DNA of 64,000 nt from Planococcus sp. MSAK28401 (lineage in GTDB: Bacteria; Bacillota; Bacilli; Bacillales_A; Planococcaceae). The notes under the pieces are model-generated. The model did not search any database, was not told the origin of the DNA, and was given only the letters and a program-made list of their open reading frames with translations. Positions within the stretch are counted from its first letter, which is position 1. Every line of letters starts with the position of its first letter. The DNA lies in contig NZ_JAAMTH010000001.1 in assembly GCF_018283455.1 (NCBI RefSeq), positions 3,329,501-3,393,500 of the forward strand. The letters are read 5' to 3'. Both the position numbers and the translations under genes were made by a program. Below, piece after piece: positions 42,216-48,516 of the stretch.

Positions 42216-42260
42216 AAAAAAACGCCGAAAAAAACCCAAGCAAGGGCTTTTTTCGGCGTT
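42216..42260 (-). terminator. terminator of the acidic lipoprotein gene
   Basis: On the minus strand AACGCCGAAAAAA pairs with TTTTTTCGGCGTT around a loop with an inner CCC/GGG pair, and is followed by T5. Confidence 0.8.
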
Positions 42261-42681: not shown

Positions 42682-43161
42682 TCAAGAGTTAGCCGCCGAC
42701 AGAAGGCCTGGGTGGTGACTGTATTTCATCAGCACGCTTTTCGCGAATGCGTCACAGCGCGGGCGGTCATCCGCTGATGGCATCTGTTCGACTTTGAGCG
42801 TTGCGGCTAAGATCGTTTTCGCATGAAGCATGTCCCGAAACAGATCCACCGCGCCGCAATACGTCGCAAAGCAGCGGTCGCCTGTGCCGAATACGCCTGT
42901 GATGGGCGTCTTGTCCTGCTGTTCCATCGCTTCGAACAAGCCGTGCAGCTGCTTCGGGATTTCCCCGTTCATCCACGTATACGTCCCGACCAAAACTATA
43001 TCGTAACGAGATAGTTCAGCAAGATTGAATTCTTTCACTCGAAAAACATCCGGCTGCAGCCCCTGCCGCACGAATGCATCCAGTACCATACGGGCGAGGC
43101 ATTCGGTATGCCCCGTCGCAGAAGCATAGACAATTGCGACGTTCGGTTTATAATTCGTCAA
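42682..43161 (-). CDS. flavodoxin of the ribonucleotide reductase operon
   Basis: This 159-residue protein has a flavodoxin fold: the FMN phosphate loop YASATGHTECLA (about 12-23), TYTWMNGEIPKQ, and FGTGDRCFATYCGAVD. It starts at TTG inside the 3' end of nrdF (14-bp overlap) with no strong ribosome site, so coupling to nrdF is likely. It takes the place where nrdI usually stands. It could supply electrons for the radical cofactor or act as a general flavodoxin; motifs favour an ordinary flavodoxin over NrdI. Confidence 0.88.
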   Translation of the reverse strand: MTNYKPNVAIVYASATGHTECLARMVLDAFVRQGLQPDVFRVKEFNLAELSRYDIVLVGTYTWMNGEIPKQLHGLFEAMEQQDKTPITGVFGTGDRCFATYCGAVDLFRDMLHAKTILAATLKVEQMPSADDRPRCDAFAKSVLMKYSHHPGLLSAANS

Positions 43162-44185
43162 AGCCGTTCGACTCCGATACTTTCGTATAGGCGCGCGATT
43201 TCTGTTCGAAGAAATCCGACTTCGTGCTGTTCATCATATCATCGCCGAAGACACGGATCCATGGCATCGGGTTGTCGCGCGTTTCATAGAGGTTGCCGAG
43301 CCCGATTTGACGCAGCCGCTTGTTGGCCAAATACTCGACGTATTCGTTGAACTCATCGAGATCCAGGCCGTCGATTTCCCCGAGGATATGCTGGGCCCAT
43401 TCTTTTTCGAGTTCCACTGCATGCGCCACTTCATCGCGGATCCAGTCGTTCATGTCATCTGTCGCGAGTTCCGGGTTTTCTGCAATCAGGATGCGGATAA
43501 ACTGGGAAACGAAATAGGCGTGCTGCATTTCGTCGCGCTGGATATAACTGATCATCGTGCTGGTCTTGAGCATTTTCTGCTGGCGCGCAAGGTGGTAAAA
43601 AAACGCAAAACCCGCATAGAAATAAATGCCTTCCAAGTTGATCGAATTGACCGCAAGCTTCAATAAGTTTTTCAAATCAGGCTCGTTGCGGAACGCTTCG
43701 TACGCAGACAAGATCCGTGCGTTGCGCTTTCTGACGAGCGGGTCGTTCTTCGCTTCATCAAAGCGCCGGTTTTGTTCATCGAGCGGCACGAGTGAGCTGA
43801 GCACGTAAGAATATGATTCGGTATGGACTGCTTCCTGCTGGGCGATGACGGCAAAAATCGACTTGAAGCTTGAATCGCTGACATAGTCCATTACTTGGGT
43901 CATCGTCGGCGTCTGCAGGCTGTCAAGAGACGCGAGCTGCGTGTTGATGCGCAAAAAGACGCCTTTCTCGGTATCCGATAGTGAGTCCCAGTTTTTGATG
44001 TCATCCTGCATATTGATTTCCTGCGCTTTCCAGAAGTTCGCGAGTAGCGCTTGGTACAAGTCATACATATGCGGATGGGCGATGTCGTTCCAATTGAGCA
44101 AGCCGGAGCTCGCCCCGCCGACAATGGCGGTCGAGCGGTTCGGTGCATCCGGATCCATCAATGGTTGTTTCGTTAAAGTTTGCAT
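43148..44185 (-). CDS. nrdF: class I ribonucleotide reductase small (beta) subunit
   Basis: This 345-residue helical protein contains the dimetal site: Asp in LASLDSLQ, Glu/His in QQEAVHTESYSYV, Glu in NLEGIYFY, and Glu/His in RDEMQHAYF. The radical Tyr sits four residues after the first His, as in NrdF. It provides the radical for NrdE. ATG 44185 has AAAGG 9 nt upstream; ATG 44194 is an alternative with no spacing. It follows nrdE by 15 bp. Confidence 0.94.
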   Translation of the reverse strand: MQTLTKQPLMDPDAPNRSTAIVGGASSGLLNWNDIAHPHMYDLYQALLANFWKAQEINMQDDIKNWDSLSDTEKGVFLRINTQLASLDSLQTPTMTQVMDYVSDSSFKSIFAVIAQQEAVHTESYSYVLSSLVPLDEQNRRFDEAKNDPLVRKRNARILSAYEAFRNEPDLKNLLKLAVNSINLEGIYFYAGFAFFYHLARQQKMLKTSTMISYIQRDEMQHAYFVSQFIRILIAENPELATDDMNDWIRDEVAHAVELEKEWAQHILGEIDGLDLDEFNEYVEYLANKRLRQIGLGNLYETRDNPMPWIRVFGDDMMNSTKSDFFEQKSRAYTKVSESNGFDEL

Positions 44186-44200
44186 ACTCCTCATCCTTTC

Positions 44201-46378
44201 TTAGCTTTCACATGCCTCGCATGCTTCGATTTCTTCCTGCGACGTGCTGCGCACATAATAGCTCGTCTTCAATCCGCAATTCCACGCTTCGAGGTGCAAC
44301 TCCAGCAATTCCTTGGCGCGGATCGTGTGCGGCACATACAAATTAAAACTGATTGACTGATCGATATGGCGCTGTCTCGCGGCGTTTTGGCGGATGCTCC
44401 ATTTCTGGTCCAGCACGTGGCGCGCACGGCGGTAATAGTCATACGTCCGGTGGTTCAAATCCGGTGCTGTTACATTAAAACGGAAATTCTTTTTCTCTTC
44501 TGCGTATTCGACGGCATACAAAGGATCGATGCCGTCTGTCGAACCGCCGATTTTAGCGGTAGACGAGTTCGGCGCGACCGCCATCATCCAGCCATTGCGG
44601 ACACCGGATGCTGCAACTTTACGGCGCAATGCGTCCCAGCGTTCGCTGTTGTAGCCGCGGCGTTCGAAAAAGCTGCCCGTATGCCATTCAGAATCCTTGA
44701 ATTCGCTGAAGGCTCCTTTTTCTTCTGCCAATCCCGCAGATGCGCGGATTGTGTGCCAGGCGATTTCTTCGTACAAAGTATCGGCATACTCGACCGCTTC
44801 TTCTGTTTCCCAATGGATGCTGCGAAGCGCCAGCAAGTGGTGCCAACCGAATGTACCTAATCCAACGGCGCGATATTTTTGGTTCGTCACTTCTGCCTGG
44901 CCGACGGAAATGGTATTCAAATCGATGACATTATCAAGCATGCGCAATTGAATCGGAATGAGGCGGGACAAAACGTCCGCTTGCACCGCTCTTGGCAAAT
45001 TGATGGATGATAAATTGCAGACGACGAAATCGCCCGGTTTTTTCACAGTGACCAAATTGCCTTCTTCGTCTTTGTATTCTTTGATGATTTCAGTCGGCGA
45101 CATGTTCTGTGCGATTTCACTGCACAGATTGCTGCAGTAGATAGACGTTTTGCCGATGCCGCGCAAGTGCTTGTTCGGGTTTTGGCGGTTCACTTCGTCG
45201 CGGTAGAACATATACGGCGTGCCGGTCTCGAGTTGCGACACCATGATGCGCGCCATAACATCCATTGCACGGAACGATCTTCTTGCCAATAAAGGATGGT
45301 TGACCGCTTCCTCGTATTTTTCAGTAAAGTATTTATGATCCATTTCGTCATAGAAATCTTCCAAACCAAGCAGATTGCCCTGATCGTCTTTCCAGCCCAT
45401 CACTTGCTTAACTTCGTGCGGGCAGAACGTATGCCATTCGCCGACGCTGCGGCCGTTTTCATCCGTTTCCTGCAATTTTTGCATAAACAAATCCGGAATC
45501 GAGACGCCAGTGAAAATATCGTGTGCTTTGCGGCGCTCATCGCCATTATTCGTTTTCAAATCCAAGAAGCCGTTCATGATGTCTTTATGGAATACATCCA
45601 AATAGACTGCCACTGCGCCTTGGCGCTGGCCAAGCTGGTCGACGCTGACGGCAGTGTCGTTGAGCAGGCGGATCCACGGGATAACGCCGGATGAGTTGCC
45701 TTTGAATTTGCGGATGTCTGAGCCGAGTGCGCGCACTTTTCCGTAATAAACGCCGAGGCCGCCGCCGTCTTTGCTCAGGCGCGCGACATCCCAGTTGTTC
45801 TGGTAGATGCCATCAAGCGAATCCGCTACGGTGTCGATAAAGCATGAGGACATTTGCCCGAAACTTTTCCCGGCATTCGATAAAGTCGGCGTTGCTACCG
45901 TCATATACAAATTGCTCATCGCCCAATACGCTTCCTTGACGAGTTCCAAGCGGCGCACTTTCGGTTCTTTTTGCATCAAGGTCATCGCGATCACAAGAAA
46001 CCGCTCCTGCGGCAATTCCCACACACGCCCGTCATAGTCTTTTGCCAAATAACGATCCGCCAATAAAAACAGGCCTATGTAATTGAATAATTCATCGCGT
46101 TCTGGCGCAATTTCTTGGCCTAATACACGGATTTCGTCCTCGGAATAGGCTTCCAGCAAATCTTTCGAATAAATGCCGAGTCGGCTCAGCCCCTCGATCA
46201 ACCCGTAAAAATCATCGTATTTGTTCGCTGCGCTATAGCCGCGCGTTTGTGCGGCTTGTTCGTATAATTTCTCCAAATACAATCCTGCCGCCTCAAATGT
46301 CCAATGCGGCTCGTCCATCGACACCCGGTCAAGTGCATCTTGAATTTTTCTATCGCGTTCTACTGCTCCTAAAGTCAT
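44201..46378 (-). CDS. nrdE: class I ribonucleotide reductase large (alpha) subunit
   Basis: This 725-residue protein reduces ribonucleoside diphosphates. Seen are the redox Cys in GQMSSCFID, the radical-site NLCSEI (Asn-Cys-Glu), the second redox Cys in FVVCNLSSINL, PNSSTAKIGGSTDGIDP, and a C-terminal CEAC pair for thioredoxin or glutaredoxin. No ATP-cone domain is evident at the N-terminus. ATG 46378 overlaps the end of the thioesterase gene region (TGAAATG). The operon lies behind a cobalamin riboswitch and an NrdR box. Confidence 0.95.
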   Translation of the reverse strand: MTLGAVERDRKIQDALDRVSMDEPHWTFEAAGLYLEKLYEQAAQTRGYSAANKYDDFYGLIEGLSRLGIYSKDLLEAYSEDEIRVLGQEIAPERDELFNYIGLFLLADRYLAKDYDGRVWELPQERFLVIAMTLMQKEPKVRRLELVKEAYWAMSNLYMTVATPTLSNAGKSFGQMSSCFIDTVADSLDGIYQNNWDVARLSKDGGGLGVYYGKVRALGSDIRKFKGNSSGVIPWIRLLNDTAVSVDQLGQRQGAVAVYLDVFHKDIMNGFLDLKTNNGDERRKAHDIFTGVSIPDLFMQKLQETDENGRSVGEWHTFCPHEVKQVMGWKDDQGNLLGLEDFYDEMDHKYFTEKYEEAVNHPLLARRSFRAMDVMARIMVSQLETGTPYMFYRDEVNRQNPNKHLRGIGKTSIYCSNLCSEIAQNMSPTEIIKEYKDEEGNLVTVKKPGDFVVCNLSSINLPRAVQADVLSRLIPIQLRMLDNVIDLNTISVGQAEVTNQKYRAVGLGTFGWHHLLALRSIHWETEEAVEYADTLYEEIAWHTIRASAGLAEEKGAFSEFKDSEWHTGSFFERRGYNSERWDALRRKVAASGVRNGWMMAVAPNSSTAKIGGSTDGIDPLYAVEYAEEKKNFRFNVTAPDLNHRTYDYYRRARHVLDQKWSIRQNAARQRHIDQSISFNLYVPHTIRAKELLELHLEAWNCGLKTSYYVRSTSQEEIEACEACES

Positions 46379-46379
46379 T

Positions 46380-46868
46380 TCAACACAGCTCCTTTGCGTA
46401 TTCATTTGCGATCATTCGGCGTTCTTTTCGCTCCTGTGCGTTCTCAAACAAACGTTTTTCGTTTTCCGTTTCCGGCACTACGCCTGCGACCAGCGTCGGC
46501 CTGCCTTCTGCATCCACGGCCACCATTGTTAAAATCGAAGTGGTCGTCAAACTGCGCGTGCCGCTTTCGATGTGCTGGCATTCTGCTTTGACGTACACTT
46601 CCATCGAGGTCCGGCCTGTTGAAATGACGACGCCTTCCAAAATCAAGATGTCGCCGACTTTCGCCGAGGACAGGAAATTGACGTTGTCGATCGATGCGGT
46701 CACGACTGCGCGCTGGCTATGCTTCATTGCCGCGATAGCCGCAATTTCATCAATATACGCGAGGACTGTGCCTCCGAAAATGGTGCCCATATGGTTGGTA
46801 TCCGGCGGCAAGACGAGCCGGGACTGGATGGTCCTGGACACGCCGGCCGGAAGTTGTTGTCTATGCAT
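46380..46868 (-). CDS. acyl-CoA thioesterase, hotdog fold (YciA/YkhA-like)
   Basis: This 162-residue protein shows PPDTNHMGTIFGGTVLAYIDEIAAIAAM (about 20-47), with the catalytic Asp in the long hotdog helix, and ASIDNVNFLSSAKVGD, the acyl-CoA thioesterase pattern. ATG 46868 has AAGGAGG at 8 nt. It is the first gene of the nrd transcript, between the riboswitch terminator and nrdE; its stop and the nrdE start are separated by 1 bp. Why a thioesterase is tied to DNA-precursor synthesis is unclear. Confidence 0.9.
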   Translation of the reverse strand: MHRQQLPAGVSRTIQSRLVLPPDTNHMGTIFGGTVLAYIDEIAAIAAMKHSQRAVVTASIDNVNFLSSAKVGDILILEGVVISTGRTSMEVYVKAECQHIESGTRSLTTTSILTMVAVDAEGRPTLVAGVVPETENEKRLFENAQERKERRMIANEYAKELC

Positions 46869-46891
46869 GATGAATTCCTCCTTATAAAAAC

Positions 46892-46925
46892 AAAAAAGCC
46901 CCCACTCTCCGGAGAGAATGGGGGA
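46892..46925 (-). terminator. riboswitch-controlled terminator ahead of the nrd operon
   Basis: On the minus strand CCCCCATTCTCTCC pairs with GGAGAGTGGGGG and is followed by CTTTTTTG. It lies about 90 nt downstream of the cobalamin aptamer and 24 nt upstream of the thioesterase start, the expected place for an expression platform. Confidence 0.85.
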
Positions 46926-47015
46926 CATGAAGGCAAGTCAATCATATGGGCATACTTGGGCCCCACAAACCAAACCTTTATCATCCTTCCCAATTCCCGG
47001 AGAAGTGCAAAACGA

Positions 47016-47173
47016 CAACAAAGGCAGGTCTCCTGGCTCGCGCGTCACTCTCGCCATGCCCTTCCCGTCCATTGGACAGTGGGATTTCATGGTTCGTCTG
47101 CGCTTACAGTTGCGGGAACAGCTCCGGGGTTTCACCGGATTCCCTATTCAGCCCATATGGGGCACCTTTGTTG
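47016..47173 (-). promoter_or_regulatory. cobalamin (AdoCbl) riboswitch
   Basis: On the minus strand the aptamer opens with CAACAAAGGTGCC and closes with CCTTTGTTG (P1, 9 bp). Inside are the conserved AATAGGGAA, CCGGTGAAACCCCGGAGCTG, CCCGCAACTGTAAGCG and CCACTGTCC. The B12 box AGCCAGGAGACCTGCC is at 47038-47023. It is followed by a terminator, so B12 should shut off the class I ribonucleotide reductase operon. The identity is beyond reasonable doubt; the off-switch direction is inferred from the terminator. Confidence 0.95.
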
Positions 47174-47178
47174 CGGTA

Positions 47179-47194
47179 TCACTATATATGGTGT
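47179..47194 (-). promoter_or_regulatory. NrdR box
   Basis: TCACTATATATGGTGT matches the palindromic NrdR consensus ACACWATATATWGTGT at 14 of 16 positions. It lies immediately upstream of the riboswitch aptamer, where the promoter should be. A weaker half-site is at about 47228-47235. NrdR represses ribonucleotide reductase genes when dATP is plentiful. Confidence 0.75.
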
Positions 47195-47399
47195 TGAATT
47201 TTTGCATCATCACCAAATCTTGTAGTTTCACTATAGACCAGTTCGAAATTTGCCGCAAGGATTTTCTTGGAGTTCCTGAAGAAAGCGAAAAAGGGTCTAG
47301 TCGCTGGCGTGTTTTTCGTAGAAACCTTTCCATTTGTAGTTATTTTTTGATACGAAGTTCCTCAATTTTTTTTGTTTAAATGAAGATAGCGTGCGCTTG
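47195..47399. other. leader/promoter region upstream of the nrd operon
   Basis: AT-rich DNA between the NrdR box and the repeat cluster should contain the nrd promoter on the minus strand. No convincing -35/-10 pair with standard spacing was found by eye, and no gene is seen. Confidence 0.4.
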
Positions 47400-47672
47400 C
47401 TTGTGGAACTGTTTCGGTCGTTGGTATGTGCTTCATCTTGGTAGTCGCCAGCCTGCTTTGGGTTGGCCTTTGGCAACAAGCCAATGAATTGGCGAGAAGG
47501 AGTTGAGCCGATTCATTTGCGACGCATCTGCGTAGCAGATGTGGGAGCAAGGTGTTTGACCTGATGCTTGAATAAATATTTATCTAAGGCGTCGGCTCAC
47601 CCTTGTCGCTGGCTGGCTAAGATATTTCATAAATTCTTGTAGGTCTAATTAAATCTGCTCCTTTAGATAGTT

Positions 47673-47979
47673 GCCGGCTTGTGGGGGAATCGCTTCCCGG
47701 GATGGGCATGTCATTAGGTAGTGAGAGCTTGATTGAAAAATTGTATCGGTGTTCTTTTTGTGCTTCATTTTATTAATCGCCGCCCGGCTTTGGGTTGGCC
47801 TCTCGCAATAAGCCAATTCATTTGCGACGCATCTGCGTGGCAGATGTGGGAGCAAGGTGTTTGACCTGATGCTTGAATAAAACATTTATCTAAGGCTTCG
47901 GCTCACCCCTTTGCGCTTGGCGGCTAGGAGATTTCATTGTTCTGTGTGTGTTTAATTAGATCTGCTTCTTTAGTTAGTT
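47673..47979. repeat. repeat unit 1, long form (307 bp)
   Basis: It runs from GCCGGCTTGTGGGGGAATC to just before the next GCCGGCTT. It includes the 78-bp insert at 47816-47893 with a perfect CATCTGC-GTG-GCAGATG hairpin. Confidence 0.85.
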
Positions 47980-48287
47980 GCCGGCTTGTGGGGGGAATCG
48001 CTTCCCGGGATGGGCATGTCATTAGGTAGTGAGAGCTTGATTGAAAAATTGTATCGGTGTTCTTTTTGTGCTTCATTTTATTAATCGCCGCCCGGCTTTG
48101 GGTTGGCCTCTCGCAATAAGCCAATTCATTTGCGACGCATCTGCGTGGCAGATGTGGGAGCAAGGTGTTTGACCTGATGCTTGAATAAAACATTTATCTA
48201 AGGCTTCGGCTCACCCCTTTGCGCTTGGCGGCTGGGAGATTTCGTTGTTCAATGTGCGTTTAATCGGATCTGCTTCTTTAGTTAGTT
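47980..48287. repeat. repeat unit 2, long form (308 bp)
   Basis: It is nearly identical to unit 1 over its whole length, including the 78-bp insert. The near identity of adjacent copies points to recent duplication or gene-conversion-like homogenisation. Confidence 0.85.
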
Positions 48288-48516
48288 GCCGGCTGGTTGG
48301 GGAATCGCTTCCCGGGATGGGCATGTCATTAGGTAGTGAGAGCTTGATTGAAAAATTGTTTCGGCGTTCTTTTTGTGCTTCATTTTATTAATCGCCGCCT
48401 GGCTTTGGGTTGGCCTTTCGCAATAAGCCAGGAAGGAGGCTTGTCTTATTGCTTCGGCTCACCCTTGTCGCTGGCCGGCTAAGATATTTCATTGGTCTGT
48501 GCGTGTTTAATTAGTT
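48288..48516. repeat. repeat unit 3, short form (229 bp)
   Basis: It matches units 1-2 at both ends but lacks the 78-bp insert. In its place, after AAGCCA, is GGAAGGAGGCTTGTCTTATTG, which resembles the short-form copies near 54 kb. A decayed partial unit follows to about 48610. Confidence 0.8.

Follow-up and report, generated by a model that had tools for sequence, protein, structure and literature searches.

Why should a ribonucleotide reductase that does not need vitamin B12 stand behind a leader that appears to sense it, and does the boxed promoter next to this sensor add a further level of control? In the window, the 64,000-nt stretch of Planococcus sp. MSAK28401 DNA that was analyzed, the minus strand carries, from 5′ to 3′, a promoter, a distal and a proximal NrdR box, a cobalamin aptamer, a P13-like hairpin, a terminator and a ribosome-binding site (RBS), followed by the thioesterase, nrdA, nrdB and flavodoxin genes (Table 1). 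This leader is predicted from its sequence to be a two-input switch, NrdR plus an AdoCbl riboswitch, acting on a B12-free class I reductase, with a probability of about 93%; its elements, its gene partners and the co-inheritance of the riboswitch with the B12-dependent class II reductase, NrdJ, are matters of observation. The range 46380-47194 spans the thioesterase gene, the leader and the proximal NrdR box, and the distal box (to 47225) and the promoter (47230-47258) are found just beyond it.

Table 1. Features of the class I ribonucleotide reductase operon and its leader, in order of transcription
Feature	Position	Strand	Evidence
Promoter, TTGCGG-N17-TATAGT	47230..47258	-	8/12 consensus matches, under the promoter-scan threshold
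Distal NrdR box, CTACAAGATTTGGTGA	47210..47225	-	10/16 to consensus; 31 bp from proximal box
Proximal NrdR box, ACACCATATATAGTGA	47179..47194	-	14/16 to consensus
Cobalamin (AdoCbl) riboswitch aptamer	47006..47184	-	RF00174, 130.5 bits
B12 box region, GCGAGCCAGGAGACCTGCC	47023..47041	-	RF00174 alignment
P13-like hairpin, CTTC-UCCGGGAAUUGG-GAAG	46986..47005	-	Leader alignment and folding
Candidate antiterminator strand	46989-47000	-	Inside P13-like hairpin
Intrinsic terminator between aptamer and first gene	46899..46924	-	11 pairs, then CTTTTTTG; -19.6 kcal/mol
RBS of thioesterase, AAGGAGGAATTC	46872..46883	-	Located in leader sequence
Acyl-CoA thioesterase, hotdog fold (4HBT), first operon gene	46380..46868	-	PF03061, 69.9 bits (cut-off 20.6)
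nrdA, class I ribonucleotide reductase alpha	44201..46405	-	NF006665, 1200.5 bits (cut-off 1057)
nrdB, class I ribonucleotide reductase beta	43148..44194	-	NF007184, 391.2 bits (cut-off 310)
Flavodoxin, overlapping nrdB end	42682..43161	-	PF00258 (Flavodoxin_1), 64.8 bits (cut-off 25)
Likely operon-end terminator, 17-pair stem	42221..42260	-	Terminator scan

Regarding the riboswitch, Rfam finds a single cobalamin element in the window (RF00174, 47006-47184, minus strand; E 1.5e-32), and its score of 130.5 bits is four times the cut-off of 31.5 bits; the alignment covers all 189 model positions (1-189) and the B12 box is intact, so that the full AdoCbl aptamer described in the first-pass annotation stood up to the covariance-model search proposed there. 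By eye, the TATAGT element of the promoter recurs, with a TTG-type -35 element 17 bp upstream, in 14 leaders of the own and the sister genus. Further upstream, at 47384-48442, the window has three to four copies of a direct repeat of about 308 bases, with no clear gene and with two copies 98% identical. Elsewhere in the window there are a pan motif (RF01749, 62598-62685, minus strand, 57.9 bits) and a T-box leader (RF00230, 8850-9091, plus strand), the latter barely above its cut-off (93.4 bits against 93).

As for the genes, the first-pass annotation had read the operon as thioesterase-nrdE-nrdF-flavodoxin; the gene set and the assignment to class I hold, and the names nrdE and nrdF, which denote class Ib, do not. 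The alpha subunit scores 348.2 bits with the class Ib model TIGR04170 (cut-off 750) and the beta subunit 162.7 bits with TIGR04171 (cut-off 355), and both pass NF006665 and NF007184, respectively; because of this the enzyme is taken as class I rather than NrdEF, and nrdA and nrdB are the better names. The flavodoxin is below the cut-off of the general flavodoxin models (best 98.3 of 123 bits) and reaches 57 of 163.8 bits with TIGR01754, the model of reductase-associated flavodoxins. In three family genomes (G044, G058 and G102), nrdA is in two pieces.

Among the 122 family loci, 13 have the thioesterase gene between riboswitch and nrdA; they all belong to the 14 loci of the own and the sister genus, and no thioesterase match was obtained in the other 109. 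In Cytobacillus, Mesobacillus (two loci), Neobacillus, Bacillus and Pseudoneobacillus, six loci in total, the gene occupies the same place, with 69-75% identity. The window NrdA, whose nearest named matches (97-98%) are Planococcus maitriensis and others, is 79-96% identical to its counterparts in the own genus, 77-78% to those of the sister genus and 56-65% to NrdA of the same type elsewhere in the family; for the other genera retained, identity over the best segment is 70-78%. Because the latter is closer than the rest of the family, the operon was probably exchanged between Planococcus and Bacillus-type lineages.

The B12-dependent isozyme expected next to a B12-repressed, B12-independent one exists in the same genome: as the first-pass annotation had predicted, there is a class II reductase, an 852-aa NrdJ that scores 1647.9 bits with NF005991 (vitamin B12-dependent reductase; cut-off 854), and with PF02867 it and the window NrdA are the two ribonucleotide reductase large subunits of the genome. 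Two further cobalamin riboswitches bring the genome total to three, and none of them is at nrdJ. One heads a salvage operon with BtuF-, BtuC- and BtuD/CbiZ-like proteins, CbiB (TIGR00380) and PduO (TIGR00636), and the other a PduO-like protein (71 bits, cut-off 108.45) and a BtuF-like protein; CbiB and PduO of the former are over their cut-offs, and the remaining names are sub-cut-off matches or come from reading the sequence. Five genes with B12-binding domains are present, one with a 715-aa, mutase-sized frame, and the genome lacks CbiC, a marker of de novo corrin synthesis. Given these uptake, salvage and use genes and the lack of CbiC, the outcome of another check proposed with the first-pass annotation, the cell probably imports, adenosylates and uses B12.

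The link between the riboswitch and NrdJ was followed through 121 genomes of the family, in which NrdA, class Ib NrdE and NrdJ were located; 119 of them provided upstream DNA for 122 class I loci, and two genomes without a class I locus at the thresholds used (G050 and G107) were left out of the counts. Riboswitches were counted with an nhmmer nucleotide profile seeded by the three aptamers of the own genome and grown from its own matches. Of the 99 genomes with NrdJ, 98 have a riboswitch before the class I operon, versus none of the 20 that lack NrdJ (Fisher p 8.6e-22, a value that ignores kinship), and the rule holds both for NrdA-type loci (73/75 with NrdJ, 0/12 without) and for class Ib loci (26/26 and 0/9). 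It is obeyed also within the four genera that have both states (g3, g7, g10 and g17). An NrdJ concealed in the genomes classed as lacking it was ruled out with TIGR02504, for which 0 of 21 genomes were over the cut-off. On the side of the riboswitch, Rfam at E ≤ 0.1 gave no cobalamin match in any of the 20 riboswitch-less loci checked among the 23 (all but L079, L096 and L115), and it gave a match over cut-off in all 20 riboswitch-bearing loci checked among the 99, mostly low scorers of 81-121 bits.

Exceptions are few. Genome G098 has NrdJ and no riboswitch; its NrdJ is encoded on a contig of 4,031 bases, in an assembly of 450 contigs with a contamination of 8%, and if this gene is its own, genus g9, with seven members lacking NrdJ, becomes a fifth mixed genus and runs counter to the rule. 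A riboswitch is also missing before the second nrdA of G041, a genome with NrdJ. In G113, which has no NrdJ, a damaged aptamer with decayed core and B12 box sits in the expected place, scoring 31.6 bits with the profile and going unseen by Rfam. Since the aptamer is kept in 98 of 99 genomes with NrdJ and is absent or decayed in 20 of 20 without it, the pattern points to retention of the riboswitch under selection tied to NrdJ. In many genomes, of the family and of others, nrdJ itself is split into two to four parts; the splits fall close to residues 265-272, 482 and 653 and suggest introns or inteins.

Outside the counted family set, the riboswitch was found in 65 of 80 named loci. One of the 80 (L230) was left out of the NrdJ check, having 88 bases only upstream of the match; of the 79 usable loci, 50 were checked, namely all 14 without riboswitch and 36 of the 65 with it, and a few of these 50 "other-genus" genomes, such as Jeotgalibacillus, may belong to the same family in some taxonomies. 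NrdJ was present in 36 of 36 riboswitch-bearing genomes; among the 14 without riboswitch, 11 had no NrdJ match and three had one (Gracilibacillus lacisalsi, G. timonensis and Streptohalobacillus salinus, the last partial, 46%). The choice of the DNA-precursor enzyme by B12 supply is thus indicated to be a family-wide rule, common also in Bacillus-type neighbours, that is kept or lost with nrdJ.

Regarding the NrdR input, the NrdR-like palindrome reported just upstream at first is confirmed and is one of two boxes, 31 bp apart, at the reductase promoter; the scores of 14/16 and 10/16 refer to what is taken here to be the NrdR box consensus. The distal box is weak by itself (10/16), both boxes have the conserved C and G of the palindrome, and the score of the pair was reached by 0 of 200 dinucleotide shuffles of the same leader. 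The proximal box runs into the aptamer, sharing with it the first six positions of the model, which are unpaired. A spacing of about three helix turns and the prime importance of one G-C pair per palindrome half are described for NrdR boxes in the relevant parts of PMC9110341 and PMC12051234, and the window pair has that spacing. The genome also encodes NrdR (TIGR00244, 230 bits, cut-off 124.65).

The pair recurs at all 99 riboswitch-bearing family leaders, with 31-32 bp spacing in 86. A chance match was ruled out, considering that the best single box scores at least 13/16 in 97 of 99 leaders, a level that simple base shuffling yields in about 1.9 of 99, and that, of 200 dinucleotide shuffles per leader, none reached the pair score in 95 leaders and a single one did in each of the other four; because the sequences are related, these 99 leaders represent conservation plus pattern, and not 99 independent cases. 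Both boxes are complete at the conserved C and G in 45 of 99, and the distal boxes of many relatives are without these positions. At the 23 loci without riboswitch, the pair beats 200 of 200 base shuffles in 20, is reached by 1 of 200 in L101, and fails this test in L100 and L096; the family offers a natural series in which the riboswitch was lost repeatedly and the NrdR boxes stayed. In the own genus, nrdJ is preceded by a box pair with a spacing of 32 in 4 of 4 loci, a count made with no shuffle control. Since the boxes persist after riboswitch loss and also precede nrdJ, NrdR control seems to be independent of the riboswitch and to cover both reductases.

As for the expression platform, the terminator claimed in the first-pass annotation is there: an 11-pair stem at 46899-46924, -19.6 kcal/mol, precedes the first gene, as would be looked for in a cobalamin riboswitch. 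It was singled out by its strength and place because the whole scan gave terminator-like sites at near shuffle level (12 in 6.8 kb against 9.5). In the family, terminators follow 93 of 99 aptamers by a test that required -8 kcal/mol or stronger at 45-140 bases past the aptamer match, with no shuffle control, and that replaced a looser one (96/99); the six leaders with no terminator by this test are all from genus g4. A P13-like hairpin with a CGGG-type loop lies 3′ of the aptamer in both leader groups aligned, and in the window folding allows its 3′ half to pair with the 5′ arm of the terminator. This candidate antiterminator pairing had p 0.25 against shuffles in a duplex test, and across the family pairing clearly above chance was not found, with p ≤ 0.05 in 9 of 93 leaders.

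B12 most likely switches the class I operon off; this direction is taken from the riboswitch class, the terminator and the tie to NrdJ, and a proven antiterminator plays no part in it. The sequence of events would start at the DNA, where NrdR loaded with dATP and ATP, when deoxynucleotides are plentiful, would occupy both boxes, which lie at the start site, and block transcription. Once transcription has begun, AdoCbl would bind the aptamer in the RNA, and polymerase on the bound leader would stop at the terminator, ahead of all four genes; with no AdoCbl, it would read through, presumably by means of an antiterminator. The cell would use NrdJ while imported B12 lasts and make the class I enzyme once B12 runs out, because nrdJ has NrdR boxes but no riboswitch. 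In this respect, the first-pass reading, that the cell also has NrdJ and chooses between its reductases by B12 supply, is supported, since none of its refuting conditions that genome data can address came true.

The opposite direction has to be weighed against this one. Minimum-energy folds are ambiguous: the segment 3′ of P1 folded alone favours an antiterminator-like pairing, with the complete leader an anti-P1 hairpin together with the terminator is preferred, and because this hairpin may also form beside the terminator, the direction is unreadable from such folds. The fold of the isolated segment would suit an arrangement in which AdoCbl keeps P1 closed and frees the strand for the terminator 5′ arm, so that B12 turns the class I operon on; however, minimum-energy folds model neither the ligand nor the L5-L13 kissing loop. 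Besides, the riboswitch is retained where a B12-using substitute exists, which fits repression, and in the parts of PMC3848588 dealing with Propionibacterium (Cutibacterium) acnes, the view is that B12 riboswitches decrease nrdAB expression, and premature termination of transcripts was observed; activation by B12 is accordingly very improbable.

The riboswitch might otherwise be an inherited relic, with no present function at nrd. That leaders can outlive their use is seen in G017 (locus L077), which has neither NrdJ nor aptamer and yet keeps, before nrdA, a terminator like that of its relatives, but a relic would hardly follow the presence of NrdJ as closely as the family counts do, and this view is the least credible. 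Finally, the thioesterase may be the real target, induced in B12 shortage to free CoA as B12-dependent mutases stall, with nrdAB as a passenger; its presence there in 13 of the 14 own- and sister-genus leaders and in the six Bacillus-type loci agrees with this, as do the five B12-binding-domain genes with the mutase-sized one among them. Still, most family loci have no thioesterase there and the constant partner is the class I reductase, which leaves this proposal highly unlikely, even if slightly less so than the others. Under the preferred two-input reading the thioesterase can still be a co-regulated extra, and any tie of it to B12 shortage is a guess.

Comparable systems exist in other bacteria. 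In work attributed to Borovok and dated 2006, Streptomyces coelicolor nrdABS is said to be a class I operon under coenzyme B12 control via a riboswitch; it differs from the window in its gene order and in being experimental, while the window is known from sequence. In P. acnes, nrdAB has a nrd-box and a cobalamin riboswitch at its promoter and nrdRJ has no riboswitch, as in the Planococcus genome; unlike the latter, it is an actinomycete, nrdAB has a single nrd-box, and nrdDG is also annotated with a riboswitch (PMC3848588, in the parts on these operons). The first-pass annotation referred to the arrangement as established for actinomycetes; it is not new to Firmicutes either, as a putative AdoCbl riboswitch before nrdAB was reported for another member of the Bacillota, Bacillus methanolicus MGA3, from RNA-seq 5′-UTR analysis (PMC4342826). 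The corresponding locus of B. methanolicus strain DE0196 (L232) has a riboswitch and an NrdR-like pair, with NrdJ in its genome and, unlike the window, no thioesterase match; NrdR and NrdJ, both found for the window, go unmentioned in the portion of PMC4342826 on this leader. The window arrangement is therefore already known from other bacteria, and Planococcus is a further instance.

A different layout of the same two inputs occurs in relatives. In the window, both NrdR boxes are upstream of the aptamer P2 hairpin; in the class Ib riboswitch leaders (among L102-L134), one NrdR box, the partner of the proximal one, coincides with the P2 hairpin at the start of the aptamer, mostly CTACTATATGTAGTTT, in 26 of 26. 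This box is 31-32 bp from the other one and scores 11-12/16, versus 4-9 for the best upstream partner. A box coincides with the P2 hairpin also in three NrdA-type leaders (G015, G032 and G101), and five g2 leaders (L091-L095) and one of g11 may represent a further form or a register effect. As a control, 30 of 45 riboswitches from seven of the same genomes were read (6 nrd, 24 other), and 23 of the 24 non-nrd ones had no such pair (score 16-20 against 24-27). The odd one out (G037:C7:251845-252029, L159; score 24) is the first of two tandem riboswitches, with a cobalamin-biosynthesis-like gene downstream by sequence reading, and it looks like a copied nrd leader. In G113 (L116), the P2 hairpin is intact despite the decayed aptamer core and B12 box.

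It is somewhat more probable than not, on this pattern, that in class Ib leaders the same bases are both a DNA operator of the dNTP sensor and a stem in the B12-sensing RNA; if true, one sequence would double as protein operator and RNA aptamer stem, in a case that can be tested. Neither this shared hairpin nor the family-wide NrdJ rule was found described in the literature searched, and the nrd parts of PMC3848588 do not describe the hairpin. Two family loci, L048 (G060) and L050 (G010), carry a second, divergent cobalamin riboswitch upstream of the nrd riboswitch.
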